Below are positions 5,553-59,600 of a DNA stretch of 64,000 nucleotides, piece after piece. Numbering within the stretch: position 1 is the first letter of the stretch; each line of letters opens with the position of its first letter. This DNA is from Diadema setosum (taxonomy: Eukaryota > Echinodermata > Echinoidea > Diadematoida > Diadematidae). The notes under the pieces are model-generated. The model was not told where the DNA came from, did not search any database, and saw only the letters and a program-made list of their open reading frames with translations. A program made the position numbers and the translations under genes. The stretch spans positions 15,071,696-15,135,695 of the forward strand of contig NC_092686.1 in assembly GCF_964275005.1 (NCBI RefSeq). The letters are read 5' to 3'.

Positions 5553-5957
5553 TCATGACTCCCCTTTTAACCAATCAGATGAGAGGATTCTAGAAATGAG
5601 GTATATAACACATAATGTTGCCCTCACCAAATCTAAATTAATTAGCAGATGTTGCGGATTCCTGTCGTTGTTGCATACACACCATCTCTTGAGTGTCCTT
5701 CTTTGCCCGTTAATACCAAGTTGCGATCTCATGCTCGTTGCCATTTTATTGACCATATTGAAAATGGTCTCGCATCTGGCATTTGAATGAGGAATGAGAA
5801 GAAGGTACGTTGCTAGTTTTGACAGTTTAGGGAACCTTAGGGAATTATCCTCCACATTCCTGAGTAGGCTAAGCTCATGCCAGAACTTGTCTATGCGGTC
5901 ATCCTTTACTTCTGGCAAGTCAGTGGCACACTGAAAATCACATAGTTCAGGTGACAA
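5553..5957 (-). pseudogene. hAT transposase C-terminal dimerisation region (fragment)
   Basis: The 134-residue open frame contains IDKFWHELSLLRN, FPKLSKLATYLLLIPHSNA, CETIFNMVNK and MRSQLG in order. This is the pattern of the hAT C-terminal dimerisation domain: Trp, then FPxLxxLAxxLLxIPxSNAxxExxFS, then RxxL. Full hAT transposases run to roughly 600 residues with an N-terminal BED zinc finger and an RNase H-like core; neither is visible here. About 60 residues at the C-terminal end of the frame do not look like the family. Its position inside matching TIRs supports origin from the host element. It should not be annotated as a host gene. Confidence 0.75.
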
Positions 5958-6260
5958 GAAGTCAAGTTGGTCGTCTGTAAAAATTCACATACTACGTTTA
6001 ATACAATCACGTACGGTACGTACACGGCCGGCTGGGATCATGCCACGCGTATGCCGCATCGGCCGCACCACGCACACGTGAGCTACCAAAACATTACAAT
6101 TATGCGTGGTTCTAGCTACACGTACACGTGTACAGTAAGTCTTGCACGCACATAGATATGATAGAGACTAGTGCGCCACTGCAGTGTGCATACATGTGTG
6201 CATATTAGAAGACTGAATACGGCGTTTTTGAGGAATGAGTTCCTTAAAATTATTATTAGT

Positions 6261-13130: not shown

Positions 13131-13391
13131 TCTGTAGTTGTAGGTATGTTCATATGTTATCACTTGATTTTCAAGTGACACTTACATCTAAGCTGAGATG
13201 TAAAGAGGACGCATGAGTATATGCACTGTTAGCATGAGTTCTGTGGTGTCTATCACCACTCACCCTGGAAATGTCTCTCTGAATTTTTTTTTTTTTTAGC
13301 AATGTACGGTACCCAATTTGCATAGAATGTCTATGCATATGCACAAAAGATTGTAGATAAGTTTTCTTTGCTTGCATTTGGTTATTTGCAG

Positions 13392-13891
13392 GAAGCAGCA
13401 GTCAATACAATATGCCAACAAATTGAAATGGGCAACTGGAAGCATGCACTGGACACTTGGCAGATATTTACAGGGTCAGAGTTTTGCCTTGATCCCCTGC
13501 CCAAGTCACTCTCAAAGCCACAGTCATCTGAGGCGAAGCAGTCTACACCAGACGAGGAAGAGGGAGGCGGGGACGACGGAGCCAGCGGGGATGGTGGAGG
13601 GGAAGCCGGGGCAACGGCACCGCGGCCCACCTTCAGGGTGACCTGCACTAGGTCGGGCGATCGGCATCACTTCAACTCCAGGGATGTAGCGCCCTCTGTT
13701 GGCAGCCTCATCAATGAGACCTACGGCTGGCCGGTAAAGATGAAGGACTACGACTTGGAGGTGGTGGTGAATATCCTGGAGGACTCGATGCTTGTTGCTC
13801 TGAGCATGACGAAGGAATCCATGCACCGCAGAAACATCACACACTTTGGCGTGACCACCCTCAGGTCCACTATTGCATACTGCATGTTGAG
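13392..13891 (+). CDS. THUMPD3: THUMPD3 exon with THUMP domain
   Basis: The acceptor is TTTGCAG and the donor GAG-GTACAA; it enters in phase 0 and leaves two bases over. The first about 50 residues (EAAVNTICQQIEMGNWKHAL) lead into a low-complexity acidic and Gly-rich linker, then the conserved FRVTCTRSGDRHHF segment of THUMP and the RRNITHFGVTTLRSTIAY junction with the methyltransferase fold. A methionine at 13368 lies before the acceptor and is not taken as the start, because the acceptor is good and the protein needs an N-terminal part. Confidence 0.9.
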
Positions 13892-16800
13892 GTACAATGG
13901 GTTTTTTTTGAGCTTGCTCTTTTTCATTTGATTTCTCCGCCATATCATCTATTATTTTCCTCACTGTTAACCCCTTTTATTTGCTTCCTACCTGAATAAT
14001 TTATTATACCTTTTCAAACCGTGAGGAAACGTTACTCTAGATATTAAAAGATCATTTCAACATTGGAGTGAATCTTACACACTCTGTCCCATGGATGAGT
14101 AAATGGTGGTAATATTTTCTCAGTTTTTTTTTTCTCAAATAGTTTGGGTTTCTATCAATGCAGAATAAATGAAAACACAAATGATTTAGTGTTTGATGTT
14201 TGCAGTGGTATAAAACGTGATTTACTAGCCAGTCAAGTATTATTTGATATGGTTAAAAAACAAACAAAAAAACTGTGTCCCAAACTAATTCAGGCAAATT
14301 GATAAGAAAGGAATATAATTGCCTGAATTAAAACACTGTTTGCACGTAAGAACATTGAAGAAATCATTCAAGTATCCAACTCAGTAAATGATAATTTTTT
14401 TTTTTTTTTATTTTTTTTTTTTTATAGAATGACCCAGCCCCAACCAGGAGAAGTAATCTGTGACCCTATGTGTGGGGTCGGTGCAATACCACTGGAGGTA
14501 AGTATGCCTAATAAGTAGTGATATCTGAAAGAGCAATGTTGCAATACTAACTTGCATTATCACATTGATAATTGTTCATTTCTGACAATTTTAATTTTCA
14601 AATTCATGACGTCAATGTAGGGCAATTTGTCAATCAGTTGCAATTTTTATTATTTTTTTTTTTACTTTCTTTCTGATGTCCAGTGTTCCTGTTATTGTTC
14701 ATATTGTCACTGACTTGACATTGACTGACAAGTCTTGAGTTTTAGATCTTCATATTAAGAGAATACATAAAGAACCAAGCATATTGCACTTATACATGCA
14801 GCTAAATTAATAAGACTCCATGTCATTTCGTTCAGCTTTTGTCCAACTTGAACGTCACTGTGTATGGTGCTGATATGATACTTGCCCCACATGTTCCAGA
14901 TATCTTGGGATGTTGAAAATAAATATTTCATTCTTTCTTAAATCACACTTATTTGTAAAAACTCATAGGTGTGTGATATTTCCCACACATACATACACTA
15001 TACCAAGTATACACACATTTGGAATTATATGAGTGGAATTTGCAGCCGAACTTTCGTTGAATGCCTCATCCTGCTTCCTGCAAATGTTTCAGGGTCTGTT
15101 GGCATGGCGATCCTGCTTAGTGATGTCCGGTGATGTCAATGAAGTGGCCGTGGAGAGGACAAAGGGAAATATTGACTCACTGACAGAGAAAAGGAAATCA
15201 AAGCAAATCATAAGGTGAGATAATCTGTGTCATATCCCCAAGCATATTCAAATCTAGCACACATTACACCAGGCCTCATCTGTGTGAAGTGACCTATTGT
15301 AAAAGTGGAAATTTTCGTGCATTGGCACAAATATGTTTTTTTGTTGCCAGATTTTTTGCTTGTTACACGTTATGATATTGTTTTATATTTTTGATCTCAA
15401 GTAGGTATATTGTATGGCAATATTTGCTTATGTTATTTGTATTTTTCTTAATATTTTAAAGTCCTGTAGGCTGAGTAGATTTGCCACCATTATGTGGATT
15501 AGTCTTATGTTTTGCGGTGTTACATGCTGCCAAAGCCCTTAACTGTCATGACAGCAATGAGCTCAGTTGTTGTGACCTTCTGTGAAATAAAAAACACACA
15601 AAATTCTTCTCACACAGCTGCGTGTGAGATATTACAAGCATAAAGATTTTTGCTTTTGCAGTATTCAGTGACATGAATTCCATCTAGGTGATATACATGG
15701 TATATCCCTCTTTTTGAGCACCCTTCTGATGGGTTTCAAACACATCACTTTGTTTTGGCATCATATGGGAGTGATATTTTGTTTCTTGTTTCTTCTGCTG
15801 GTACCTTATATTTTCTGTTTTTGTAAGTAATCTGGACAAATGTATCTTCATTGTGTATCTATATGCCCTCTATGTATTCTGTGAAAAAAGGTTTTCTAGG
15901 CTTGTATATTTGTTTTTATGAATGACTATCTAAATGATAATTCTCATGATAGCAACAAGACGTCTTTTACGTCAAACCTGACGACACTTTTGTGTGGTGG
16001 ATACAGCTTCTGTATTTACAATTTTCATAAATTGTTAGCCCAAATTTATTCTGTTAATGGCAATGTGAGCAGGAATAACACCTTTTCAATTTCAAATTTT
16101 CAAATGATTGTGCTTTTTAACTATTCAAAGATTTGAAAGTGGTCATTTGCTTCCTCATGTCAACATGTGTGCCTTTGTCCTTGTAGGTGTGTGTACAGTA
16201 TTTGTGAGTGCATTTACAAACCATAAGTGCAGGTTGTTCTTTACACTTATATGATACCGTTTCCCTTCAGACCTGATCTTGCAAATGACGTCTTCAGATG
16301 GGATGTTACAAATCTGCCGCTGAAATCTGCCTCCATCGACATCTTTGTGACTGATTTGGTGAGCAGTCCCAATATTTCCCAAAAGACCTGTGTCCCATTA
16401 ACCTTAGACCCATCTTGTTTCCTTTCCCCATTCATTACATCACTTGTGTATGTGATTTTAAATTATTCTTAATCTACCATGTCCAGGCACCATCACCAAG
16501 AACACCCCCACCCCACCCCACCCCAAATGAAAAAGGAAGAATACACGTGTGTATGTAGTTTCCAATACTGTAAAAGTGGAAATTTTCGCGGTGTTGAAAT
16601 TTTCGCACATTTCGCACAACCAGAAACAAGCGCGAAAATAAAAGCATGCGAATATTTTTGCATGCTGTATGTTCCAGTGGTTGATGTCTTGATTCCACGG
16701 AATTAAAAACACGCGAAACTCTTTTCGTCTGGCCAAGCGCGAAAAATTAGTCGCGCGAAAATATCCACTTTTACAGTAATTATGAACGTTATATTTTGTA

Positions 16801-21449: not shown

Positions 21450-23770
21450 TTTTCTGCTGGTAATAACAGTACCAACTTGTGGACAGGTCTCTCCAGTTCA
21501 CTAGGGGGGCGTTGACGCTTTCCCTCATTGTCCAGCAAGCCGTCGGCCATCAGCACCTTGACCTTCCTGATCAAGCCGTCCTTGCTGGGGTAGACCTCGA
21601 TGACACGCGCGAGGGGCCACCTGCCACGAGCGTTGTCGTTCTCCTTCGCTATCACCACATCTCCAACTGCGAGTTGTCAGCTTGGGCTGACCCACTTCTG
21701 ACGGCTCTGCAGTTGCTGAAGATACTCTCTCCTCCACCTTAGCCAGAACTGATTGGTCAAATACTGGACCCTTCTCCACCACTTCCGCGCAAACATATCT
21801 TCCCGCTGGAGCTGTCCTGGAGGGGGTAGGGCGACCTTCGGCTTTATGGTTAAAAGATGAAGCGGTGTCAGCGGCTCTGGTGTCTCAGGGTCACTTATGC
21901 CAGATGTGGTCAGGGGTCTGGAATTGATGATGGCCTCTGCCTCTGTCGTGAATGTACAAAAGGCCTCATCATCTAACTGGCTTCCTGCAGACTTCATCAG
22001 CGGCTCTAGGACACGGCGAACTGTCTGGATCTGTTGTTCCCATACACCACCCATGTGAGAAGCATGAGGTACATTCATTACGAATGGTACCCAGTCACAT
22101 CCATTTTCCAACAGATACTCTCGCACCCTCTCCTGGTCCATCTCTGACAAGGCTTCCCTGAGCTCGTTTCGTGCCCCAACAAAGGTTGTAGCCTGGTCAG
22201 ATCGCAACACCCTCACAGATCCACGCCTATTCATAAAGCGTCGCAACGCGTTGATGAAGGCGCTGCTGCTGAGGCTATTTGCTGTCTCCAGGTGCACACT
22301 CCTGGATGATATGCACGTGAACAGCACCCCATACCTCTTTACTTCACTGCGTCGTTCCTTGATCAGGAATGGTCCAAAGTAATCAACTGCACAGTAGGAG
22401 AATGGTGGTGAGGGTTGTACCCTTTCCTCTGGCAGCTCTGCCATCTGCTGGGACAGCTGACCTCGAAGCCTTCTACAGATCACACAAGAGGAAATGCATT
22501 GTGACACAGCTGATGTGCCCCCTATCACCCAATATCCCTTCTGGCGCAGCTCATTGTGGGCGATTCCTCTGCCCATGTGCTGGGTTCTCTGGTGACAGTC
22601 ACGAATCGACAGCGTGCTAATGTGACACTTACGAGGAAGGATGATGGGATGTCTGACATCACTGGACATGTTGGCGCGATCTATCCGACCACCAACTCTG
22701 ATGATTCCCTCACTGTCCAGGAATGGGTCTAGCCTGAACAAGGCACTGGTTTTCTTGATTGCTGCATTTCTTGTGCGGACTTGGCCTCTGTCCACCACTT
22801 CACCAGTGTTCTCTAGACCTCTCAGTACCTGCAGTTCTTCATGGAAGTGCTCATGCTGTACACCCCTCAGGATAACTCTTTCCGCTTCTTGCATCTCAGC
22901 CACTGTTACGGGTGGAATTCTCGTTTCCCTTGTTCCAGTGGTCATCTTTTGATTGTGTCTCCCCTTCAACTTCTTTAACTGCAGGCAGTGTGCAATTGGT
23001 CGCTTGGCTGAGTGCCAAGTAGAGAAGCACTCAAGGCGACTTGACTCCAAGTGACCCGTTCTCTCTTGCAGCTGTGTTTTCAGGGCAGTTACACGTTTCA
23101 CTTCGGGGTCATCATCATCGATGGAGCAGGATTCTTCTGCGGTCGGCTGGAACACTCCATCCCTCCACAGAAAATCAGGCCCTCTGAACCAGGTGTCGCT
23201 GGAAGTGAGTTGTTGAGCTGTCATGCCTCGGGATGCCTTGTCTGCAGGATTCTGAGTAGTGTCTACGTAGAACCATGAGTCAGGATTGGTATGGTCCCTG
23301 ATGAGCTGTACCCTGTTGGCCACGTACACATGAAACCACCTGGCTTCATTCTTGATATAGCCAAGTACGACCTGGCTGTCTGTCCAGAAGAACTCCTTCA
23401 TGTCAGCATACTTCAACTCGGCTCTTAGGAACGAACTTGTCTTGGCAGAGACTGTTGCCGCTGCCAACTCCAGCCTTGGAATTGTAATGGGTCTCAAAGG
23501 GGTCACTCTGAACTTGCCTAGCACTAATGTACAGTGCGTCGTCCCATGATCGTCCACAAGACGGATGTATGAGCACTGCCCATATCCTGCTTGACTCGCA
23601 TTGGAGAAATGATGAAGTTCCACAGCCTTGATCTCCCCGAAATCGCTTGGTTTGAAACACCTGGGTATCCTGAGCTTCTCTAGCTCATGTACATCAGTCA
23701 GCCACCTTTCCCAGCACGGTTGAAGGTCATCTGGCATCGGGCCACACGGGTCATAAATTGAGCTGACCAC
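21450..23770 (-). pseudogene. RNase H and integrase region of the BEL/Pao element
   Basis: LHHFSNASQAGYGQCSYIRL and FFWTDSQVVLGYI belong to RNase H. HQRTQHMGRGIAHNELR with CISSCVICRR is the H2C2 zinc domain. YCAVDYFGPFLIKERRSEV, LRSDQATTFVGARNEL and PHASHMGGVWEQQIQTVRR are the integrase core, and a DUF5641-like C terminus (GRWPLARVIEVYPSKDGLIR) follows. The order is right for BEL/Pao pol. Confidence 0.88.
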
Positions 23771-24840
23771 TGAAAGAACGCCACGCCTGGTGAAGGGGCG
23801 TTCCTTGAGCTCAAGTTGAAGCCAAGGATGTCATTCGCGATGCACCATACGATTCCAAGGACTCTCTCTACTGTCTGGGTGCCTTTGTCAAGGTTAAGGC
23901 TCTCTGTGTTGATGGCTCTGTCCTCTAGTGGGAAGCTCTCCAACACTTCCTGGCTGTTTGAGGCTATCTTGTGAAGACGTAACCCTGCCTTCTCATAAAG
24001 TCCCTGGCTGTTTTTCAGGAGCTGGATTGCTGAAGGAACATCTGGCTCAGATCTAAGGCCATCGTCTACATAGAAGTCTGTCCGATGTAGTCGGCTGCTG
24101 AGAATCCGAATTCTCCTTCACCATCATCTGCCGCACGCCGCAGTCCAAATGTTGCTACTCCTGGTGAACTTGCTGCACCAAAAAGATGAACCTTCATGTG
24201 GTACTCTACAACAGGCTGCTCTGGGTTCCCATCTTCCCACCAGAGAAATCGCAACAGACCTCTGTCTTCAGGAGTGACGTAGAACTGGTGAAACATGCTT
24301 TTCACATCTGCAGTCACAGCGATGTAGTCCTTGCGGAACCTGCAAAGTACACCCAGAAGGCTATTCATCATATTTGGTCCCTGCAGCAAATTGTCGTTCA
24401 AGGACACACCTTGATATTTTGCTGAGCAGTCGAAAAGCGCACAGATTTTGTTCTTTCTTGGATGATACACACCTGTGTGTGGTATGTAGTTCACTCTGTT
24501 CTGGACTCCTAGACGCTCTGTTGGCACTGTCTCTGCATAGTTTTGGATTACGTCATCCATGAATGCTCTGTAGTCGTCGCAGAACTTTCGGTTTTTTCTC
24601 AGTCTGGCTGATAACTGATTCCATCTCTTGATTGCAAGGGGCTTGTTGACTGGGAGATTTGGTTCCTGAGCCTTGAGTGGCAATGGCATTTCGTAGTGCC
24701 CATCCTCACATCTTCGAACGCCCTTCTCCAGGATCTCCATGAGCTTGGTTTCTTCCACTGAGTAGGGTTCTCCCTTTGAGTCTGTCTCCTTGAAGTCTTG
24801 CTCAAGGACCTGGAGGACCTTCTCAGCACTGAACACCTCT
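23770..24840 (-). pseudogene. Reverse transcriptase region of the BEL/Pao element
   Basis: NYIPHTGVYHPRKNKICALF, DCSAKYQGVSLNDNLLQGPN and YIAVTADVKSMFHQFYVTPE are Pao-type reverse transcriptase motifs (fingers and palm). The catalytic YVDD region is recognisable downstream. The region is broken, as in the rest of this fossil. Confidence 0.85.
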
Positions 24841-25610
24841 TTTACCTTGCGGAAAAGGTGAACCTTTGATGTTTCTCCGTCACTGTCATTCTATTACAGA
24901 CTCCTTCATTACTGGTTGCTGTCAGACAGACACTCCCAACAACTCCCCAGCCAAGGAGAGATCTCTGCGCATAGGGGTCGTCCTCTTCACCACAGATGAT
25001 CTCCCTTGGTCTGATGGCTCTGGGACAATTGTTGCCAATTAGTAGAGACACCTCCACTGCAGGATTATACGGCATCAGGTGGTCTGCTATCGGTGCAAGA
25101 TGAGTCCAACGTCTAAGCGCCTGGCCCTTTGGGATCTGGGAGCACCTTGCAGGGACCTCGTCTCTTGTGAAGCAGTCTGGTAGCTTGATTGTGTGCTCTT
25201 TATTGAAGTCCAGCACCTCGAGACCACTGATTTTCTTACTCTTCACTTGTGCACTGTGGTGCATAGTGGTCAGTTGGAGTGTTGTGTCTGGTCCTTCAAT
25301 GTTGAGCTTTTGCCGCAGTCCCTCAGAAATGAACCCAACGTTCGACTGATCGTCCAAGATGGCGTACTGTAGCACTTCCTTTCCAGGATTACTTCTGTGC
25401 CTCACCCAGACCGGAACTATCATACAGTGCTCCCGACCATCCTGGTCTGGCAAGGAACACACAGTTGTGCAATTGGTTGAGCCCTGCGGTTTCACATCCC
25501 GATGGAGACAGGCTAGGTGGGTTCCCTCACACACCTTGCATTTCCTTCTCTCTGTGCAATCCTTCACTCGATGGGCATCTGTTTTTGCACATCCCATGCA
25601 CAATCAATTT
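24840..25610 (-). pseudogene. Zinc-knuckle and protease region of the BEL/Pao element
   Basis: CMGCAKTDAHRVKDC and RKCKVCEGTHLACLHRD form the zinc-binding knuckles. LQYAILDDQSNVGFISE carries the LDDxSN active-site motif of the BEL/Pao retropepsin (DUF1758 family). It lies between the gag-like part and reverse transcriptase, the expected order. Confidence 0.85.
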
Positions 25611-26990
25611 TGAAAGAAGAAGGCCTTCTTGGACTTGTATGAAACCTTCTGAAATTCTTGACATTCATCCAAGTGATGTGCCTGTTCGTAGTATGGGCAT
25701 GAGGAATATTGCCCCTGCTTTGTGTTTGGTCGGCTTGTTGTTCCAGATGTGGAGAATGTTCGCCCAGAGTTGCTGCTTGTGGTTCTACCAGATGCAGGCT
25801 TTGCCTGCACATCATGTCTCGGGCTCTCTAGCTCAGGCATGTTGGCCTTCTCAGCTGCCTCTCTCACAAAATTTGCAAACTCTGTGAATGTGGGATAGCA
25901 GCATTTTCCACCTTGTGATTTTTTCTTCAGTACTACGTCCCGCTACTTCGAATCCAAATAATGTGGCAACTTAGCCAAGACCTGGGCGTTCTCTTGTGGG
26001 CAGTCCAGAATGCCTAGGTTGGGGACCATGACCTTGGCTGCAGTTACCTTGTCCAGAAAATCAGAGAACTCTCTCAAAGCTTTACCATCCCTGGCATTAA
26101 CTTTAGGCCACTTCTCCAGACGGTTCATGTAGGAACAGCTTACTAGCGTGCTGTCTCCATACCGCTCCTTCAGCACAGATCTGGCCCTCTGGTATGCATC
26201 GTCAGTACCAAGGAGGAGGTAATGGTCGACCACATCCTTTGGTTCTCCCCTCACATATTGCCCAAGATAGTTTAACTTCGTAGTGGGATCTACTTGTTTC
26301 GAATCAATCAGAGCATCAAATGCATTATTCCACATCGGAAATTGTAGAGGATCTCCGGTAAAAACTGGGACTGCTATTTTTGGCAATTGACCAGATGCAG
26401 CCAGCTGAAGACTGATGGCACCTTGTTGCCTGCTTGCATCTGCCATGTGCAACATACATCTTTCCATTGTACTGGAGATTCGATCCAAGGCAGTCGCTGT
26501 TTGCTCTGATTCGGGTTGCTTCTCTGCATAAATATGCGCTGTTTCCACTTGAACATGTGAAGGCGGGTTCTGTTGAGATGGCGCTTGATGCTGTTCTGAC
26601 TGTGCATGATCCAAGGACTTTCTCAGATCATTATCTTTCCCAGATTGCTGCTCTCCTGGCAACTCAGGCTGATCCATCCGAAGCATATCACCCATCTCAT
26701 CAACCACTTTCTGGACTGCTTCATTTTCTGCAATTTCTCTCTCCAATTGCAATTTCTGCAACATTTCTTCCCCTTTCAGTCTCAGCATTTCTGCCTGCAT
26801 TTCCTCATTCATTTTCCTCCTTTTTTCTTCCAATTGTTGAAGCTTGACTTGTCTTTCCTTTTCTGCAAAAGCCAACCTGGCTTTTAGGGCCGCTTCCTTC
26901 TTTTTGAGCTCAAACTTCTCGCTCAAACTTCTCGCTCTTGATTGAAGTTCTCGAAACCTAGCTGACGCAGCTGATGTCACTCATTGCTGC
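25600..26990 (-). pseudogene. gag-like region of the BEL/Pao element
   Basis: The minus strand encodes a charged coiled coil (RSLSEKFELKKKEAALKARL) followed by PKIAVPVFTGDPLQFPMWNN, the DUF1759 signature of BEL/Pao gag proteins, and KLNYLGQYVRGEPKDVVDHY. A Cys/His knuckle follows towards the protease. It formed the particle core protein. The region is part of a fossil and is broken. Confidence 0.85.
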
Positions 26991-41600: not shown

Positions 41601-44600
41601 AAAACAAAAATAATGTGGCATTAGTCTCAACTTTGGGGAATTTAGGGAAGTTGGGACTGAAGGGGAGAGTTGCAATTGGGAACTTGACATAATTTAAGCC
41701 CATCACTGATTGAAGGTCAAGATGAAACTCATGTAACTTTGACAGAGAAAACTATTTTATTTACATCAAGCCAACTACCTGTTACACAAGGAGTCGTAAT
41801 TCTCAATGTGCATGAAACTTTTACTTCTGCCTGTTTATTTTTTTTTAATTCACACAAGAAAACGATGGAGGGGAAAGGATGATGACAACTCTGAGTGCAT
41901 AAAAATTTGTCACTTGTACAAAAACGGGCATTTTCTATTCCCTCCTGCACTCTTTTTATCACAATGACTTTCAAATATATCAGAAGTGCATTCTGCAACC
42001 AACTTCCAGACATTGAGTTAAAGGGTCAAAGGTCAGGGGAGGATGTTAAGCAGCACACACATTGCCATGGAGATGTCTTCCTCACCTTGAGGTCGTTGAT
42101 GCTTGCCTCCAGTTCCCTCTTGGAGTCCTCGTCCCTGGCCTGCTGGAGCTGCTCCAGACGGTCCCTTGCAAGGCTCTGGCAGGTGAGAAGGGTGTGGAAT
42201 GAGGCAAAGAACAGGAACAATCACAAAACTGGAAGAAACTTTCATAAAGTCAGGCTCCTTATGTAATTTCGCGGGATTTTTTTTGTAGAGTATAAAGATT
42301 ATACATTTTTGGAAAGCTTATTGTATAAGAAATCAGGAAAGCAATGTTTCCATTTGCCCCGATACCTACATGGCCGCCATCTTGGATTTTTCCAAAATGG
42401 CTGTCATAAAACAGATTTTCTTCAAATGTCGGCTTCTACATAACCTAAAAACATGAATTTGACAGCAAATCCACCATTGCACCAAATTTGAGTTCAACTG
42501 CTTTAAAACTGTGGAAGATGTTCACTCCACAAGATTTCAGATGGCAGTGGCAATGGCAATGCCTTGGCGGGGACAATAAGTCTTGCATAACTACACCTAT
42601 AGATCATTATGCATACCAAATTTGGAATAAATTGCTTAAATATTCAAATTTATGAAGTTCTTCCGTCAAGATGTTTTCATTGCAACTGATTGGCAAATTG
42701 GGTTTGAATCCTGCTCGAGTATGTACGCCCATGATTTTTTTATCATGGCTACTACTAAAACACTGATCAATTCAGTGCTTATTTACGTCGATGTAGGGCA
42801 ATTTGTCAATCAGTTGCAAAAAAAAATTGCTTAAATACTGTGAAAGTAGTTCAATCCATAAGGTTTGGGGAAAATTTTGGTTACCATGGCAACGCTTTCT
42901 CCAACAAACACAAAAAAAAACATGTCTTGCACATCTACACCTCGATGTCGTCATGAATTTCATCGAAATTGCATTAAAACTGTAGATTATGTAAGGAATT
43001 CGCGACGCGGGGGTATAATGACAGGGTTTACAGAGAGCTGAGAATAAAAGGATTATAAAAACTGTTCTGCCAAATGAAATGGTGTACACTGAGCAGAGAA
43101 TAAAAGGGTTATGGAAACTGTCCAGCCAAATGAAAGGGTCTACACTGAGCTGAGAATAAAAGGGTTATAGAAACTGTCCTGCCAAATGAAAGGGTCTACA
43201 CTGAGCTGGGAATAAAAGGGTTAGAGAAATTGTCCTGCCAAATGAAAGGGTTTACACTGAGTTGGGAATAAAAGGGTTATAGAAACTGTCCTGCCAAATG
43301 AAAGGGTCTACACTGAGCTGAGAATAAAAGGGTTATAGAAACTGTTCTGCCAAATGAAAGGGTCTACACTGAGCTGGGAATAAAAGGGTTATAGAAACTG
43401 TCCTGCCAAATGAAAGGGTCTACACTGAGCTGGGAATAAAAGGGTTAGAGAAATTGTCCTGCCAAATGAAAGGGTCTACACTGAGCTGGGAATAAAAGGG
43501 TTATAGAAACTGTCCTGCCAAATGAAAGGGTCTACACTGAGCTGGGAATAAAAGGGTTATAGAAACTGTCCTGTCAAATGAAAGGGTCTACACTGAGTTG
43601 AGAATAAAAGGGTTATAGAAACTGTCCTGCCAAATGAAAGGGTCTACACTGAGCTGAGAATAAAAGGGTTATAGAAAATGTCCTGCCAAATGAAAGGGTC
43701 TACACTGAGTTGGGAATAAAAGGGTTATAGAAACTGTCCTGCCAAATGAAAGGGTCTACACTGAGCTGGGAATAAAAGGGTTATAGAAACTATCCTGCCA
43801 AATGAACCAGTCTACACTGAGCTGGGAACAAAAGGGTTATAGAAACTGTCCTGCCAAATGAAAGGGTCTACACTGAGCTGGGAATAAAAGGGTTGTAGAA
43901 ACTGTCCTGCCAAATAAAAGGGTTTATACCGAGTTGGGAATAAAAGGGTTATAGAAACTGTCCTGCCAATTGAAAGGGTTTATACTGCTGAGCTGGGAAT
44001 AAAAGGGTTATAGAAACTGTTCTGCCAAATGAAAGGGTCTACACTTAGGTGGGTATAAAAGGGTTATAGAAACTGTCCTGCCAAATGAATGGGTCTACAC
44101 TTAGGTGGGTATAAAAGGGTTATAGAAACTGTCCTGCCAAATGAACCAGTCTACACTGCGCTGGGAATAAAAGGGTTATATAAACTGTCTTACAAAATGA
44201 AAGGGTCTACACTGAGCTGGGAATGAAAGGGTTATAGAAATTGTCCGGTCAAATGAACCAGTCTACACTGCGCTGGGAATAAAAGGGTTTTGAAACTGTT
44301 CTGCCAAATGAAAGGGTCTACACTTAGGTGGGTATAAAAGGGTTATAGAAACTGTCCTGCCAAATGAACCAGTCTACACTGAGCTGGGAATAAAAGGGTT
44401 ATAGAAACTGTCCTGCCAAATGAAAGAGTCTACACTGAGCTGGGAATAAAAGGGTTATAGAAACTGTCCTGTCAAATGAAAGGGTCTACACTGAGCTGAG
44501 AATAAAAGGGTTATAGAAAATGTCCTGCCAAATGAAAGGGGCTACACTGAGTTGGGAATAAAAGGGTTATAGAAACTGTCCTGCCAAATGAAAGGGTCTA

Positions 44601-47600
44601 CACTGCGCTGGGAATAAAAGGGTTATAGGAACTTACAAAATGAAAGGGTCTACACTGAGCTGGGAATAAAAGGGTTATAGAAACTGTTCTGCCAAATGAA
44701 AGGGTCTACACTGAGGTTGGAATGAAAGGGTTGTAGAAACTGTCCTGCCAAATAAAAGGGTTTATACTGAGGTGGGAATAAAAGGGTTATAGAAACTGTC
44801 CTGCCAATTGAAAGGGCTTATACTGAGCTGGGAATAAAAGGGTTATAGAAACTGTCCTGCCAAATGAAAGGGTCTTCACTGAGCTGGGTATGAAAGGGTT
44901 ATAGAAACTGTTCTGCCAGGTTGAAATGAAAGGGTCTACACTGAGCTGGGAATAAAAGGGTTATAGAAACTGTCCTGCCAAATGAAAGGGTCTACACTGA
45001 GGTTGGAATGAAATGGTTGTAGAAACTGTCCTGCCAAATGAAAGTGTCTACACTGAGCTGGGAACAAAAGGGTTATAGAAAATGTCCTGCCAAATGAAAG
45101 GGTCTACACTGAGGTGGGAATAAAAGGGTTATAGAAACTGTCCTGCCAATTGAAAGGGTCTACACTGAGCTGAGAATAAAAGGGTTATAGAAACTGTTCT
45201 GCCAAATGAAAGGGTCTACACTTAGGTGGGTATAAAAGGGTTATAGAAACTATCCTGCCAAATGAACCAGTCTACACTGAGCTGGGAACAAAAGGGTTAT
45301 AGAAACTGTCCTGCCAAATGAAAGGGTCTACACTGAGCTGGGAATAAAAGGGTTGTAGAAACTGTCCTGCCAAATAAAAGGGTTTATACGGAGGTGGGAA
45401 TAAAAGGGTTATAGAAACTGTCCTGCCAAATGAAAGGGTCTTCACTGAGCTGGGTATGAAAGGGTTATATAAACTGTTCTGCCAGGTTGAAATGAAAGGG
45501 TCTACACTGAGCTGGGTATGAAAGGGTTATAGAAACTGTCCTGCCAAATGAAAGGGTCTACACTGAGGTTGGAATAAAAGGGTTGTAGAAACTGTCCTGC
45601 CAAATGAAAGTGTCTACACTGAGCTGGGAATAAAAGGGTTGTAGAAACTTTCCTGTCAAATGAAAGGGTCTTCACTGAGCTGGGTATAAAAGGGTTATAG
45701 AAACTGTCCTGCCAAATGAAAGGGTCTTCACTGAGCTGGGTATAAAAGGGTTATAGAAACTGTTCTTCCCAAACTAGAAGTATCACTAAAGGTAATTAAT
45801 ACCCTCGCTCCCAAATCCAGATTAAGCTCACCAGATTTCTATGGAAAAGAATTGAACTAGGGTTTGATAAAAGGTTATGTGTATGTGTGTCTGTGTGTAT
45901 GTGTGCAGTACCTTGTTTGTACCTTGTGAGTTTGACTGCTTCACAATTGCAAGAGTAGTTCACTCCACAAGATTTTCAAGAAAATATGCAGTTACCATGA
46001 CAACACCTTGTCAGGTACAAACAAGAGTGTCTTGCATAACTACACCTATAGATCATTATAGAGCCTACATACCAAGTTTGAAATAAATTGCTTAAACTCT
46101 GTGGAAGTAGTTTGTTCCACAAGGTTTTGGAGAAATTGTGGTTACCATGGCAATGCTTTCTTCGATAAACATAAAAAATGTCTTTTCACATCTACACCTC
46201 AATGTCATTATCAGGGCCAAGAAATCCAATGGTACTAAAATGGATAAGCTAACTTCAACAATAAACGCACATAACTGACATTTTCAATTTTCTTGATTGT
46301 TTACGAGTGACCAGACATTAACATTGCAATAAGTTAGGTGTCTATGGCTGAAGGACCAACATTCTCCTCATGACAGAAATGGATTTAATCTTTCAGGCAA
46401 CTAATCTTCTTTACAGAAGAAGAATTCCAATGACAAAGGAATCTGCATTAGATTCAACCATGAACTTGCTTGACTGATATTTCCTGTTTCATCAGCTGTA
46501 TTACCGGTAATCAGACATGAACGTTCCATTATTAAGTTGTGTATTGTGTCTAACAAGAGAACAAGCATGCTCCTCATGGCAGATATTGGTTTAATCTCTG
46601 AGGCAGCCAACTTTCTATATATCTCATCTTAATTATCATCATCGTCAGTTTCATGCTTCTTCTACCTGCCCTCATCATTTTGACACTCCCTGCTGTAACA
46701 GCATATAAAAACAATGATTAAAAAAATTCAACCATTTTCTGTTTCATTGACTGTTTTACAAGTGAATAGATTTAGATGTTAGAAATTCCACATTGAATGA
46801 AAAAAAAATAATAACTCCACACAAGAATCATTAATTTGACTGTCACTTGTTCTGAACAGTGCCAGTCCATGACTCCTGTAAAACCATTTGAATCATATTC
46901 TCCTTCTCCCCCTTCCCCCCCCCCCCACCTCTCTCCTTTTTTCTGTTCATAGGTCTACCTCACCTGTTGCTCCAAATAAGCATTAACTTGTTCCAGTTTC
47001 TCATTGATCTCAATTCGAGCCTGTTGGAGTCAGAAAGCAAACAAATGAGGGAACGTAACACGTAACAAAATCACACACGCATGCACACACACACACTACA
47101 ACACACATGCCAGCAGAGAACCTGCATTATTTCTTCAATAAACAAATCACATCTAAAACTACTTTTTTGTATGGATTTGACTGCCTTAAAACACAACTTT
47201 TGGAATCATCATTCACAAACTCCACTGTTGATGAAACACAACAACTCTTTAACACTGGCAGGGGCAAAGCATATTTCATGAACCTAAACTTAATGTTGCA
47301 GTTATGTAGGAATCTAATACAAATAATAATAATGACAATTCAAGTATCAATACCTTTGAAAACAGCAAAATACACGTGTGATTTTAGGATATCAACTTTT
47401 GTTTCCTGTAAAACATGACATATTCACGACATGAAAATTTCGCGAATTGGAGCCGACGGCCTTTCTTGCAGTATGAAATTTTTGTGACTTACCACCGGCA
47501 TCCAATGCATATTGTGTAGGCAAGAACTTTTGCGTGCATTTTAATTTCGCGAATGTTGCCGCTCGCAAAATTCGCGAAATTAAAATGCACGCGAACATTC

Positions 47601-50600: not shown

Positions 50601-53600
50601 CATTTCTTGAAGAAGATATCAGAAGTATGCATGATGACTTACAATATTGAATGTTAAATGAATAATGTATCCATTAGTATGACAAGTCTATAGGTAATAA
50701 TCACTACAGGATAACCTGTTTTAATTCATTCACTCCAACTGGCAGCCCAGTCACATAGGCAGTGAATGGCAGTAGGGGATGTTGGTTGTAAGAGTGTTAA
50801 ATCAGTTTACAGGGGGAAAACCCCAAACTTGGAACCCACCCTGCAGAAGTCGTCGGTTCTCTTTCTCTATGTCTAGCCTGAGGAGGTTCTCTCTCTCCAG
50901 CTGCTGGTTGATGTCATCCAGCTGGTAGGAAGAGAGAAGGTGTGGTCTAACTGAAGACAGTTGGTAGTCAACATTTCGTTCATTTCATATCAATTTCATT
51001 AAATTTCATTTCATATTCACTTCATTTTAATTCAATTTCATTTCATTTCTAACCCATCTAACTCCCAACTGGCCCTTCTACGGAACCCCCCACCCATCTC
51101 CCGACCCCCTCTACCCAACCCACCAGTCTCCCAACCCACCCATCTGACACACCCATCTCCCAACCCATTCATCTGCAGACTCATCCGTCGCCCAACCCAC
51201 CTGTCTCCTTAGCTATCCATCTTCTGACCCACCCATCCTCCTGACCCATCAATCTTCAACCCACCGATCTCCCAGCCCATCCATTTCCGATCCATCCATC
51301 TCCTAACTCACCCATCTCCTGACCCACCTGTCTCCCGACCCACCCATCTCTGGACTCACCCATCCCCCAGCCCCCTCCCCCCTCCCCCATCTCCTAACTC
51401 ACCCATCTCTAGACCCACCCATCTCCCGACCCACGGCTCTCCCAAAGCACAAATCTCCTGACCCGGCCATCTCCCAAAACACTCATCTCCTGACCCATAC
51501 ATCTCCCAACCCACCCATCATCTGAAACACCCATCTCTCAACTCATCTGTCTCCTGAAACACCCACATCCTGACCTGCCCATCTCTCAACCTACCCATGT
51601 CCCAATCCACCTGTCTCCCAATCCACCCATCTCCTAACCCACTAACTCACCTGTCTCCAGACGTACGTGTCTCCTGACTCAACTGTATCCTAACCCACCC
51701 ATCTCCTGGTCCACCTGTCTCCCGACCCAAGCATCTCTAGACACACCCATCTCCCAACCCGCCTGCCTCCCAACCCACCTGTCTCCGGAGTGTGACCACT
51801 GTGCCATCCATGTTGATCCTTTCTCTCTCAAACTCAGACTGCAGGGAGTTGATTCTTAGTTCCGGTGCTTCTTGCTCCTGCAAATCAAAACCAAGGAGAC
51901 GTGATCTCAGTCACTGATTATTGGTAAACGAAATGTTTTCTCACGAATACCTGATCGAATCTACCCTAAAGGCACAGTATTAAATCTCTATTCATCTATC
52001 TTCCTCTATTTCTCTCTGTCTCTATTTCCCATCTACCTGTCCATCTATTGGTCTCTTTATGTATCTATCTATCAATCTACTTGTGTCTATTTATCTACCA
52101 TAATTATCTACATATCAAACAATTAATTCATTCATATATCTATCTCTCTCACAATATTCTGTGTACATATGTTTTACAGTTTAGGTGCCGCTGCAAAGTC
52201 TTTGAAACAAATATTTGTCGCCATTTCAATTGTTTGTAACATTTATAAAGCACACCTTTTCAATTTCAAGCACAATGCCATCCTTTACCTCTACAGAGAC
52301 GATATATAACTTAGTCTTGGACCTTAAAAGAGCTGATGGTACAACCAGCACAAACTTGGGAGCCACAAACTTTGAAAACTGGAAGAGCTTGGCACGTGAC
52401 ACAAACCTTGAGTTTTCTCTTCATGAGCTTCATCTTGGACCTGGCAGCCGATAGATCTTGCTCCAGTCGTTGATTCCTGCCAGAGTGCCATCGATAAGAA
52501 CAAAGATTACACTCACAACATGCACTGCACCTGCTCAACATGCTACATTATACATGACACAATCATATAGAGTACCGAAGTGTGACATCATAGCCATTTG
52601 TTGCCATGGAAACTGGTTCTAAACAACCTCACCTGGTCCGAATATCTGTGAATGCTATGTTGCTATTAACCATGATTTCACCTGGTTCTGACTCAAGTTA
52701 TAACAAAAGACTGTGACATTATCACTGCAGTACTCTATGACATGCTTCCTCTAAACACAAACCTCACAATAAGACATGGACATATAAGGAAAATCCCTCA
52801 CCATACAGTAATGGTAATTGTTTGGTCTTAACCCTGGGGGTCTACCAGCTAATTCTTTTCAAAAAATGTTCACTCTTTCTCACACTTTGCCTAAGTTGTA
52901 CATTTATTCTTGACTCAACAGATGGTCTTATCTTTCAGTTTCCCAACAATTCTAAATTACTGGACTGAATATTGAAAATGTTGAAACCATTAATGAACAA
53001 TAATACCATGACCACTCTCATACCTTTTGCAATTACTCATATATAATTTTATAATCCATCCTTTTGAAAACAAAAAAAAAATCACATTTGAGAATTGATT
53101 GCAAGAGATTTTTTTTCTTCATGTTTATGAATGCCGGATTAAGGAGTAATAGCACAGAAAAACAGATTGACAGCCATTTGGACAGACTGACAAATAGGCA
53201 CAATGACAAGATATAGAGCCAGAAAATGAAGAGACAAACAGTGACAAAAGTAACAAGCAACTGTAGGGAAACCTGACTGCTACTAAGAAATTTATTTGCT
53301 TCCAAACTCACTTCTCAGCTTCAGCTTTACACTGGATCTCCATGTTCTTCTTGAGTTCGGCAAATTTCCTGGTTTTTCGTTTCTCCTAGATTGAAGCAAC
53401 ATGAATGACAAGAGGTTGAGCTGGTGTGAATTGCACATGGCCTGGGGTAAAGGTATGATAAACTCCCATAAAATCTCAAACTGGGTTTTTGTAGGAAATA
53501 AGGAATAGCATACAAATAATGCCCATTGCACAGGTCATTAGTAAGAATTATCCACCAGATAGTAATTTCGGTACAGTAAAAAATACACAAGGTGAAGCTG

Positions 53601-56600
53601 AGCATGTTTTGGACCATTCAAAAGTTTCCGAGGGTGGATAATTTCACCAATATTTGACCAAGTAATGAGCATTATTTGTTTTTTAAATGGTGATATAATT
53701 TAAACTCTGTGGAAGCCACTTTAGCAAAATTCCCAGGTCAACACCCAGCTCAAAACAAACTGAACCACACACACAAACAATCGGAGTGCATTTCTAATAC
53801 ACAGGCTACGCAGTTGAGCAGACAAGCAGTACACCAACACTCAATGAAAAGCAGAGTTGGGCCCTAAGGGAAAATAAAAGCCTTGTCATGTGATAGCTAG
53901 TTCTCAGCCAATCATTTACTAAGGATCCATATCACTATCTTATATTGGGATCTTACCTCTTCAACATCTGACTGCATTCTGGCCTTCTCCCTCTCTAACT
54001 GAGATATCTGCATGAAAGAACGCGCAAGAGATTGGGATTGGACCTCAGTTTTATCAAACATACTTTGTGTATAAACACACTCAAGGTCTTGGAGATAATT
54101 ATACACTGTAATCTCTCTCAATTGTGAGAAAAATATTGGGTTTCCAAGAATAAAACTAGAAATGTCGCTACAGCGACTGGTTATACCCCCGCCAAACAAC
54201 ATTTCATAAGCTTTGGTCAAAACAACATTTCATAAGCTTTGGTCAAAAAACTGAGGAAGTAGTTAAATCCGCAAGATCTTTCCTTGATCTTCTGCCATTA
54301 ATATGCCGTTACCATGGCAACGTACTTTCGGGTACTGTCGAAAAATGCGTCTTGCACATCTACAACCAAAGGCACACATCTGTACCAAGTTTCATGGAAA
54401 TTGGGCAAAAACTGAGGAAGTAGTTTGCAACACAAAATTTTCCATCATTTTGGCTCATAATATGTGAGCTGTTACCATGGCAACATACTTTTTGTCACTG
54501 TCAAGAAATGTGTCATGCTGACCTATATCCTAAGACAAACATTCAATATGAATTCCATGAGAATTGGAAGAACACTGATGAAGCAGTTTTGCCATGAAGC
54601 ATTTTGCCCTATATTTTACCAATAACATGCCGTTACCATGGCAACGCACTTTTTGCCACTGCGGAAATATGTGTCTTGCACATTAACATATTCAGATGAA
54701 CATCTGTACCTAATTTCATAAAAATTGATCAAAAACTGTGGGAGGAGTTCGCGACGCAAGATTTGTACCCATTTTTGCCCATAATATGCCGTTACCATGG
54801 CAACGTAGTTTTGGGTACTGTCAAAAAATACGTCTTGCACATCTACAACCTAAGGCACACATCTCTGCCAAGTTTTATGGGAATCGGTTGAAAACTGAGG
54901 AAGTAGTTCGCGACGCAAGATTTGCAACGGACCGACCGCCCGCTGATTCCTATATACCCCCTTCAAACTTCGTTTGGCGGGGGTATGATAACGAGGAAGG
55001 GAACAAAGCTGACAACACAAACATGAGAGCAGCAAGGAAAAGGTGATTCATATGAGAAAATGAGATATTTGAATGTTAATAGAAATAAGGCATAACGTGA
55101 GTAGATACGATACAGACATATGATGGAAATTATTGACCTATGAAAACACAATAAATGCATGTACACTGCAAGCACCATATCGATTGTCTCACAAATGAAC
55201 ATCACATAGTTGTACCTAGGCCTGCTTTGCAAGGTGTAATCAACGTATGTAGTAATCTGTAGTACACAGTTGAAACTCTCACCAAAGCATTCATTCTTCT
55301 TGACTGTTTGCCTTGGATCAAGACATGCCTGGTTTTTCTCAAGACAGTCTGCAATGTTCAAAAGGTGAGGGTCAGTGCACTGTGTATTCTAGTACAAATT
55401 TCTCTGACCTTTATACCCAGGCGTGACCTGGACTTGACCTCTGTCTCCCATAAGTCTTTGTGCTCCTCAGCCTCCTTGGCAAAGATGTTCCTGGCAGCAA
55501 ACTCCTCCTGTAGAGAGAAAGAACCTTATTATGAGGTGGGGGAGTCAGAATTTTGTTCCTCTCAGTATTCTTACACTAGAGACAGACGAGGCTTGAGTAC
55601 ATGTAGACCATGGTGATGACTGTAAAAACTGTAATTTTCATGTATAGATATTTTCATGAATGAGGAGGTCACAGACATTTTCATGAGATGTTATTTTTCA
55701 AAACTTGACACTGAGGCTATTTTAAGAAAGCACTACATTGGCGCCTGTCTGTCTACTCCGCCACTTAACTGTTTATGTACTTTAATAGTACATGTATATG
55801 ACTGAGTGCACGAAAATACTAGTACACATGCACTCAGCATGTATAACCCATTAACGAAGATCAGTGCAATACACTGGGTGATTTCAAGTTCGGTGCTAGT
55901 GCTAGTGCTATCTCAGCACTAGCACCGGCGATAAAACCGAACTTGAAATCACATCGATGTTGGGAGTCGACCTAAAAAATTATGACCTATTTCCGGTTGC
56001 CGGTGCTGGGCTCGGTGTTGAATGTCGTCTGCTGAACCGAGCTCCACCGTCTGTGTTAGGGATTTACGTGCTTTTTCCCTATTGACTAACACTAGCCCCT
56101 AGGGATTATCATTTTCTTCATTTCAAATTCGGTGCTGGTGTTAGCGTTGCCGTGCGAGACCCGTATTCACTTCCATAAGAGATGCACGTTTTACGTGCAA
56201 AGTCTATGCTAATGCAATGGTTGCCCACGTAAAGAACACGAACACTACAGACATGGCCATAGAAATCTGAGCCTGGGAGCAAAATAAAGATAATTGTGTT
56301 TTAAAGAAGGGATGAAATTTGTGGCATTTTAATCAGCCTTCCTCGTTACGTGTCTAAAACTAAGCAGTTTTGGCTATATCTTTTTGTATTTGACTTTAAC
56401 TATGCGCCATCACTTTTTTCGTCGCGCAAATCCTGCGGAGCTCGCGGTGCTGTGATCCAACACCTAGTGCTGGTGATCAATAATTTTGATCGGTATCGCC
56501 TCGTTAATCTGACCGTCGGTGTTGGAGGTCGATTTAGGGCTGTTATTTGGCGGCTAGCACCAGCACTAGCACTAGCACCGAACTTGAAATCACCCACTGT

Positions 56601-59600
56601 ACCTCAAGCTCAAGTTTGTCGATGCATATACTACCAAAAGGAGGGATGTGCATACCCAAAACCCTCATGACATTGACAGCTTTTACAGTCTTACAAATTC
56701 AATTTTTTTTTCTACTTTCTAATTGCCAGCATGTGCAAAACAGCTATACTTTGCTGTTTATGCTTCCCACATCATCAGATCACATCTATTCATCATCTAA
56801 GCAGAAGAAAAATTGGGGAAAGGGGGTGGGGATTTCCATACAGAGAGGCATGAAGTAGGATATGTGAGGAGGAGGAGGAAGAGGAGGAGAAGGAATGGGG
56901 GAGGGAGGAGAATGAGGAGTATGTGGAGGAAGAGGAGGAGAAGGAGGGCTTACATTGAGTTTGCCTTCAATCTGCAAATTACTGGTCTTCAGCGTTGTAA
57001 CCAGGGATTCCAGTCCACTGCGAATCTAGAGAGGGTATAATATGCATGTGTATTACTACAGATGCAGAATGTGCCAGACAAACTGAAAGCAGTACGACTC
57101 TCCTGTACTAGGTACTACACATCATTTCTGACACTGTGAATTTTTGACACAGCAGTGGCAATTATAACATGAAAGAGAAGTTTGTATTTTTTATTCATTT
57201 TTTTCTTTTTTATCAATCTAGAAATATCAACGGAATGAGTATGATATATTTTATAAAAAAAAATTATTTCTATTACGTAAAGTTTAAAAGAATATAGGGT
57301 TGCAAAACTATGCCTTCTAAGTAATCTGTATACTAAAGAGCACAAAATGTAATCTTCTCTTATTTTACATGCAATCCGAGTACATGGCCATATATGTCCC
57401 ATAAGTTCAAGTGTACAATCATTGCTTCCAAGTTTTCCCAGATGTACAGGGAAATGAAATGAATGGCTGTTAGGTAATCTGTACTACAATGTAAACAGGG
57501 GCCTCGGAACGTTTTTCAGGGTGTGGGGGTCGAGGTCAATAAGGTTTAAGGATGGAACCTTTGGAAATTCATGGGTGTTTATCTTTTTTTTCCTCAATTT
57601 TGTTGTTTTGTTTGGTTTCAATTTTTGACTTTTTTGATAAGCCCAAAAGGGGCGTTGCAACCCTCACCCCCCCCCCCCCACACGGTTCTGCTAAAGGGCA
57701 CAAAATGAAATTTTCTTTTTCTTTACATAGACTCAGAGTATATGGTCAAATTTGTCCCACAAGTTCACAGCTTCCAAGTGTTCCCTAAATTCTAATTGGG
57801 CAACCAATTTGTAATCTTCATCAAAAAATTCATTATGACCCATCAACAGCTCAACAGAAACTCCATTATGCAGACATCTCGCAGGCAAAAAGTTAAGGAC
57901 ATTTGGGTGTGGTGCCAATTCTTTTTTTATTCCTTACCTTCTGAGATTCCTGGAGGTCAGTCCTCAGGCCCTCACTGCGTTCTCTCTCCTGCTGCACAAC
58001 CATCTCCATGCGAGAGTTCTCCGCCTCAAAGTGGCGCAGTCTCTCCTCCAACTCACTCTGTGATGATCAGACAAGATCAGAGAATTATGTGGAGACACCA
58101 ATAAATACAAATCAATTCCATCTCCATCTTACCCTGCTGTTTTATCCCATGCATTGCAAAAGATTCAAGTTACTGTACATGCCATGTAATTTGGTTGTAT
58201 AATCACTACTGAAACAGGATTTGAATGACGATTTCATGCATTGTTGAATATGCAACTGAGAATAACGGCAAGATCAAGAATTTATTATAAGCATTCTCAC
58301 TGTGTGAGAAGAAATGTTTGAAAGTTTCCGCCTTGGTGACAAAAGACAGTGCATTTATTCTTTGGCAGGCAATATTTTTGGTGTGTTATCAATTTAACAA
58401 ATATTAGGTGATGAGAGAAATTTGAAGAAAAAAAAAGCCAGCCACTGTTTGATAAATAAATGATGCATACAGGATCACATAGAACCATGTACCCTCTTAC
58501 ATATTCAAAGTGAATTCACTATCTATATCAATACTGGAAGACAACTGCATCATATGTCAGTCTTCATCCAAACAATATATAAATACACACACTCATATCC
58601 CCCCCAAAATGTGACCTTTACAGTGGAAAGTCCTTTGCGACTTTTGAAGTTTTGTCAGCACTGACCAGAATGTCATATCTCCTACACTACCACTCAAAAA
58701 CAAATCGAGACACACGGATTTGGAAAGAGACATATATCTGTTCATCAAACAGCATTTTGTCTTTGCAGCTTATTGGTTCCAATGCATTCCACATATAACA
58801 CAACAGTTTCTTCAAAGGCTTTGCTTACATATGGCACGGCTTCAACCACGACACCAGTGGAGGTGCTGAAAACTGTAATACATATTATAGGCATTCACTT
58901 TATCTACAAATCAAAAGGGGGAGGAATAAAGAAATGAGGAGAGGATGACCAATGGGAAAACAAAAGTTGCTATGGCAACGCACCATCTTCTGCAGAGATT
59001 TGTTGGTGTCGACCAGCTGCTGTGAGGTGGCCATGCCATTACGCTCTGCCTGGAGCAGCTCTGTTTGGAGCTCCTCGATTCTGGTCTCCAGAGTGCGCCG
59101 CTCCTGCTGCATGATGGCCACCTGGTCCTGCATCTGTCTGAGGTCGGAGCGGGCCCCCGCCTTGTCCCTCTCCTGGTCACTCAGGGCCTGGGTGATTGGG
59201 GGGGGGGGGGGAAGGGTGGGGTGAGGAGGGGACAGGGGAGGGGGGGGGGTGAGGAAGGGACAGGGGAGAGGGGATTGGCAAGTGGGAAAACAAGAACTTT
59301 GTTAAGTTCCCTAAAGACACAAGGTCAAATCCAACTAGCCCCTTTCCTGTGATGACTGAGCACAACTCTTAACTCACTGATCAACCTAGTGACCACTAGG
59401 TTGACACGTGCACCTATCCTTTTACCACTTACAGTATATCCATGACATATTTCACCAGCACACTGCATTGCGCATCAGGGCCAGTAAGGCTATTTTGGGA
59501 GAGGTGATACTTACAAATGAAAAGCAGTGTGATGGAAAGGAAAATAAAGATCAGCAATTTTTAAGAATACATATCAGCCATTTTAAGGAGTAGTGTTAGC

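Follow-up and report, generated by a model that had tools for sequence, protein, structure and literature searches.

A degenerate 16-base minisatellite spanning a predicted exon-intron border in an ANKRD26/CCDC144-like gene: a probable further case of the mirage type

Introduction

The locus described here raises the question of how an intron comes to begin with dozens of imperfect copies of a short G-rich unit, the first of which straddles the end of the preceding exon, and how the donor sites carried along in such copies bear on splicing. The window, by which is meant the whole stretch of 64,000 nucleotides that was analyzed, has a G+C content of 40.4%, a value that would suit a lancelet as well as other animals. 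The reading preferred in the present work, to which a probability of roughly 0.74 is given, is that of an intronic minisatellite which originated when a 16-base stretch of the exon-intron border in an ANKRD26/CCDC144-like gene was duplicated in tandem, in the manner of the so-called mirages of amphioxus.

Results

Host gene

An exon chain predicted from composition and splice signals comprises 15 exons on the minus strand, including the exon which adjoins the array. Two further exons, 52476-52407 and 50921-50840, were added, since reading continues in frame between them and the 51779-51877 exon, such that 17 exons were used. The exons around the array are as follows.

53312-53385, minus strand: candidate small exon, EKRKTRKFAELKKNMEIQCKAEAE, in the phase needed ahead of exon 52476-52407
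52407-52476, minus strand: preceding exon, 70 nt, NQRLEQDLSAARSKMKLMKRKLK (coordinates of the original prediction, outside the exon chain)
51779-51877, minus strand: predicted exon ahead of the array, 99 nt, in phase 0, EQEAPELRINSLQSEFERERINMDGTVVTLRRQ (exon chain)
50840-50921, minus strand: next exon, 82 nt, LDDINQQLERENLLRLDIEKENRRLLQ plus one base (coordinates of the original prediction, outside the exon chain)

For the link from 50840 to 49587 no convincing exon was found. The joined predicted exons match Pfam CCDC144C (PF14915; 1.2e-9, 37.7 bits, cut-off 35) upstream and DUF3496 (PF12001; 7.8e-7, 29.9 bits, cut-off 23.3) downstream, in the order of ANKRD26/CCDC144-like genes, and this pairing is what we take to denote ANKRD26-like proteins. 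Judged by these predicted domains, the host is an ANKRD26/CCDC144-like gene of coiled-coil character. For the stretch around the junction no Pfam match was significant (best E 0.18), and one stretch of the joined exons, searched against PDB sequences, returned nothing under E 0.1.

Period, units and extent of the array

A G-rich, degenerate tandem array runs on the minus strand from 51786 down to 51050 and occupies, in its intronic part, 729 of the 857 nt of the predicted intron.

51771-51786, minus strand: junction unit GGAGACAG/GTGGGTTG, 8 exon and 8 intron bases, perfect fit to the consensus
51050-51778, minus strand: part of the 16-base minisatellite within the intron, consensus GGAGAYRGGTGGGTYR (consensus matches and unit parse)
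50979-51049, minus strand: second tandem array, AT-rich and ATGAA-like, within the intron's 3' part and adjoining the minisatellite

The G-rich minisatellite of the original prediction is borne out, since the consensus, at no more than two mismatches, is matched 27 times in the window, all 27 within the array, against an average of 0.21 in shuffles. Its unit of 17 bases is not: self-match reaches 0.59 at lag 16 as opposed to 0.31 at lag 17, with extra peaks at lags 32, 48 and 64, and the period is hence 16, the seventeenth letter being the G with which the next unit opens. The estimate of about 43 repeats, placed at 51050-51877, is likewise corrected by wraparound alignment. Over 51786-51042 this gave 48 pieces, of which the last, lying beyond 51050, was left out; the remaining 47 units are mostly degenerate, all 16 columns being filled in 38. 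Mean identity between units is 66-71%, and their likeness stays at 0.66-0.71 across lags 1-11, so that neighbours are no closer than distant units and recent tandem growth is not visible. The array is old, with little recent turnover to be seen.

Anchoring at the splice junction

The first unit, GGAGACAG/gtgggttg at 51786-51771 on the minus strand, agrees with the array consensus in 16 of 16 positions and spans the predicted end of the 51779-51877 exon, as had been claimed; this boundary-spanning result depends on an exon that is itself predicted from composition and splice signals. Against a profile built from the array units with the junction copy left out, GGAGACAG, the eight bases at the end of the exon, reaches a score of 10.7. 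Among other predicted-coding 8-mers, 2 of 1390 equal this value; outside the array it is equalled by 11 of 63241 8-mers of the minus strand and at none of 259 AG/GT sites. None of the other 16 exon ends reaches it either, the best scoring -0.5. The sixteen exon bases upstream of GGAGACAG score -19.4, which places the beginning of the homology eight bases inside the exon and makes the anchoring dependent on a short match. On the intron side, two other predicted donors resemble the unit's intron half (8.7 at 50840 and 8.3 at 58984), and the argument is therefore carried by the exon half. When up to four mismatches were allowed, 20 more copies of the junction 16-mer were found within 1 kb (shuffled queries gave 0.6), and the other 16 predicted donors and all 17 acceptors of the same gene have 0 or 1 repeated copy each.

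These comparisons support an array anchored at the splice junction, with an exon-side match far above chance for predicted coding sequence and for AG/GT sites. The claim that amplification began at the junction stands as regards the anchoring; the starting point is something that we infer from it.

Traces of CpG decay in the units

The unit contains two degenerate YR pairs, which look like two former CpGs. At columns 6-7 (46 units, junction unit included) the dinucleotide is TG in 27, CA in 10, CG in 1, TA in 1 and another in 7; at columns 15-16 (43 units, junction unit included) the figures are 17, 10, 5, 4 and 7. TG and CA are linked by Fisher tests (1.8e-7 at columns 6-7, 0.006 at columns 15-16), values which overstate independence, as the units are related by duplication. 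Linked TG and CA are what CpG decay on either strand would produce, and the ancestral unit was thus probably GGAGACGGGTGGGTCG, with two CpGs that decayed to TG or CA; inherited variants could account for part of the pattern. The CA of the junction unit is one of the two decay products. TG is more frequent than CA at columns 6-7 (27 versus 10; binomial P 0.008, among related units), whereas columns 15-16 show no comparable excess (17 versus 10, P 0.25). The observed/expected ratio of CpG stands at 0.51 for the array as opposed to 0.47 for the window, which means that depletion in the array does not exceed that of its surroundings.

Decoy donors and the reading frame

Weights for donors, acceptors and amino acids, together with the U1 tail, entered the calculations. 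The true donor, CAG/gtgggt, scores 5.7 and ranks seventh among the gene's 17 predicted donors (range 1.3-7.3), and second among them by U1 pairing energy. The array holds 74 other GTs, of which one scores above the true donor and two equal it; by U1 pairing energy three of the 74 are at or better than the true site, and by a plain count of U1-matching bases five are at or above it. The sites that matter for splicing and for the frame are listed below.

51737-51739, minus strand: first TAG in the frame of the exon, 39 nt into the intron
51644-51658, minus strand: unit one base short with the only decoy above the true donor, CAG/GTGAGT, 8.2, intron side from 51650 (donor score)
51320-51335, minus strand: unit with a decoy equal to the true donor, CAG/GTGGGT at 51327 (donor score)
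51193-51208, minus strand: unit identical to the junction unit, with a decoy equal to the true donor, CAG/GTGGGT at 51200 (donor score)

The original prediction had named CAG-GTGAGT near 51650 as better than the real donor, and this is confirmed (8.2 versus 5.7); its more general statement that some units carry a better donor reduces to one better and two equal. An array rich in better donors is ruled out, given that by score, as by U1 energy, 3 of 74 GTs equal or surpass the true site. The corollary that numerous decoys force a choice, or the toleration of many isoforms, was overstated, as only those three reach the true score and AGGT occurs at 7 places across the whole intronic array. Of the 37 gapless inner units, 24 have GT at the donor position and only 4 have AG/GT. 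Donor-like sites of at least true-site strength are nonetheless denser in the array than elsewhere on the same strand, at 4.07 versus 0.27 per kb.

When the exon is read straight into the intron, it continues as VGWEAGGLGDGCV and then meets the TAG at 51739-51737, in agreement with the 13 codons that had been predicted. Beyond this stop lie 69 of the 74 GTs; four of those ahead of it would shift the frame and lead to a stop in the next exon, and the single GT in frame (51742, with a very weak score of -9.9) would add 12 codons. Inner donors would thus nearly always give a premature stop. The reasoning by which every alternative donor shifts the frame, the period not being a multiple of three, fails in principle because three units make 48 bases.

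Selection on decoys and G-rich structure

Purging of strong decoys is not supported by shuffling. In a block shuffle of columns 6-7 against the rest of the unit, 2 sites at or above the true score were observed versus 3.3 expected (P 0.26), and 5 versus 5.9 at scores of at least 4 (P 0.37). Retention of GT showed no dependence on the state of columns 6-7, as GT is present in 5 of the 8 units with CA and in 15 of the 22 with TG (Fisher P 1.0). Compared with mononucleotide shuffles, G3 motifs with loops of 1-12 number 35 in the array versus 23.7, and G-quadruplex motifs with loops of 1-7 number 13 versus 10.1, a modest excess. Folding of two 200-nt pieces with a quadruplex term, in a calculation that had no shuffled comparison, lowered the energy from -51.3 to -55.9 for the junction piece and from -32.7 to -107.3 for a piece inside the array.

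Other features of the window

Further tandem arrays occur in predicted introns of the same gene. One of 56 bases, with about 49 copies and 89% matches (43017-45763), lies between exons 47020-46964 and 42175-42086, off the predicted junctions; another of 159 bases, with 4.3 copies (54239-54923), lies between exons 55507-55409 and 54007-53957. A short array at 59207-59273, C-rich on the minus strand, stands where the pyrimidine tract would lie, about 20 bases ahead of the acceptor that belongs to predicted exon 59187-58984. Elsewhere, long minus-strand reading frames at 21677-26980 resemble those of a BEL/Pao-type retroelement split over several frames. The window also contains a plus-strand reading frame with a THUMP domain (13326-13931; Pfam PF02926, 3.5e-8) and a minus-strand one with the hAT transposase dimerisation region (5553-5984; PF05699, 2.8e-6).

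Discussion

In the preferred reading, the 16-base border stretch would have been duplicated in tandem and would then have grown into the intron by slippage or unequal exchange. Selection would hold the junction copy only, which is both coding sequence and donor, and the remaining copies would be free to drift, presumably as neutral sequence, the two CpGs of the ancestral unit probably decaying to TG or CA under methylation. In splicing the exon-proximal donor is probably chosen, as it is among the strongest of the array and part of a defined exon, and splicing would be normal; G-runs downstream may aid U1 at this site. Rare use of an inner donor would yield a premature stop and decay of the mRNA.

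The opposite direction of events has also to be weighed, namely that an earlier G-rich intronic array reached the exon and that the exon end or its donor was remade from a unit. The junction unit is an ordinary member of the array, identical to the unit at 51208-51193, and the frequency of GT in the donor place of the gapless inner units (24 of 37) is in keeping with such a capture. The frame of the exon and its coiled-coil character are kept through the junction (LRRQ/LDDINQQLEREN), however, and strong donors are present in few inner units, which together render capture an improbable course of events, although the best placed of the alternatives to duplication of the border.

Readings in which the array itself acts in splicing fare less well. 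Its G-runs and donor-like units might recruit hnRNP F/H or U1, and thereby strengthen the exon-proximal donor or tune removal of the intron; passages of the literature describe G-tracts near 5' splice sites that can recruit U1 and bind hnRNP F/H (PMC5778605), and both the excess of G3 motifs (35 versus 23.7) and the density of donor-like sites on the same strand would be in keeping with such a role. The true donor shows no obvious need of help, ranking seventh of 17 by score and second by U1 energy, the array consists of degenerate units, and selection on the donor-like ones went undetected, so that a role of this kind is judged to be quite unlikely. Slightly less credible still is an array kept as a row of weakened donors acting on splicing, a reading prompted by the lack, in most units, of the CAG of a good donor (TG in 27 and CA in 10 at columns 6-7). 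Since the early in-frame stop means that each of the three strong inner donors gives a dead transcript, the length of such an array could tune the yield of functional mRNA and could differ between individuals. A G-rich array that merely happens to start at a G-rich donor is the least plausible explanation of all, for the fit of two other donors to the intron half makes that half uninformative by itself, whereas the exon half is unmatched at the 16 other exon ends and the 259 AG/GT sites.

Duplication of the border as the preferred origin has a known counterpart. Amphioxus mirages, as published passages describe them, are minisatellite-like tandem duplications of exon-intron boundaries, known in lancelet Adh3, TnC and the globins BflGb6 and BflGb9, and PGBD5 carries similar imperfect repeats; Adh3 units measure 10-72 bp, and many units of mirages, although not all, hold AG/GT splice signals (PMC3087553, PMC3902484). 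The same passages suggest that regular splicing is undisturbed by the mirages of Adh3 and the globins and by the PGBD5 repeats, state that the TnC mirage produces no aberrant mRNA, and report variation of BflGb6 mirage length between haplotypes and somatic instability of that of Adh3 (PMC3087553, PMC3902484). The present array resembles the mirages so described in that its unit spans a splice junction, that of a predicted exon, in that some units retain splice signals, and in its unit length of 16, which falls inside the Adh3 range. It differs in being long, at about 47 units, and degenerate, with a unit identity of 66-71% compared to 81-100% in BflGb6; AG/GT is retained in few of its gapless inner units, GT in more of them, and its ANKRD26/CCDC144-like host is not among the genes named in those passages. 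Lancelet or not, the host animal carries an array with the build of a mirage, and this array probably represents a further case of the type, old and decayed. Regarding the decay, CpG methylation of the amphioxus genome is described, in passages of one report, as very low overall and as located almost entirely within gene bodies (PMC6292497).

Intron gain by tandem duplication over AG/GT proto-splice sites, as outlined in excerpts of the literature, likewise copies a splice signal in tandem, yet it creates a new intron, whereas the copies seen here sit within one intron and there is no sign of a new one. The minisatellites of earthworm metallothionein are described, in the excerpts concerned, as lying in the first intron and not as junction repeats. 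A search of the open literature on minisatellites at exon-intron borders in general found nothing closer than the mirages. An exact 30-base pattern, nearly two units long, had no match among viral contigs, a result which says little, as the pattern is so strict that it is absent from the window as well.

Tandem duplication of exon-intron borders has already been published, and the value added here lies in one more measured example, from a different gene. From the TG/CA pattern it would seem that the decay of methylated CpGs improves some copies as donors and worsens most of them. The locus serves as a clean natural test of the choice of the exon-proximal donor by the spliceosome among tandem copies, and as a natural test of how an intron may be filled with copies of its own border.
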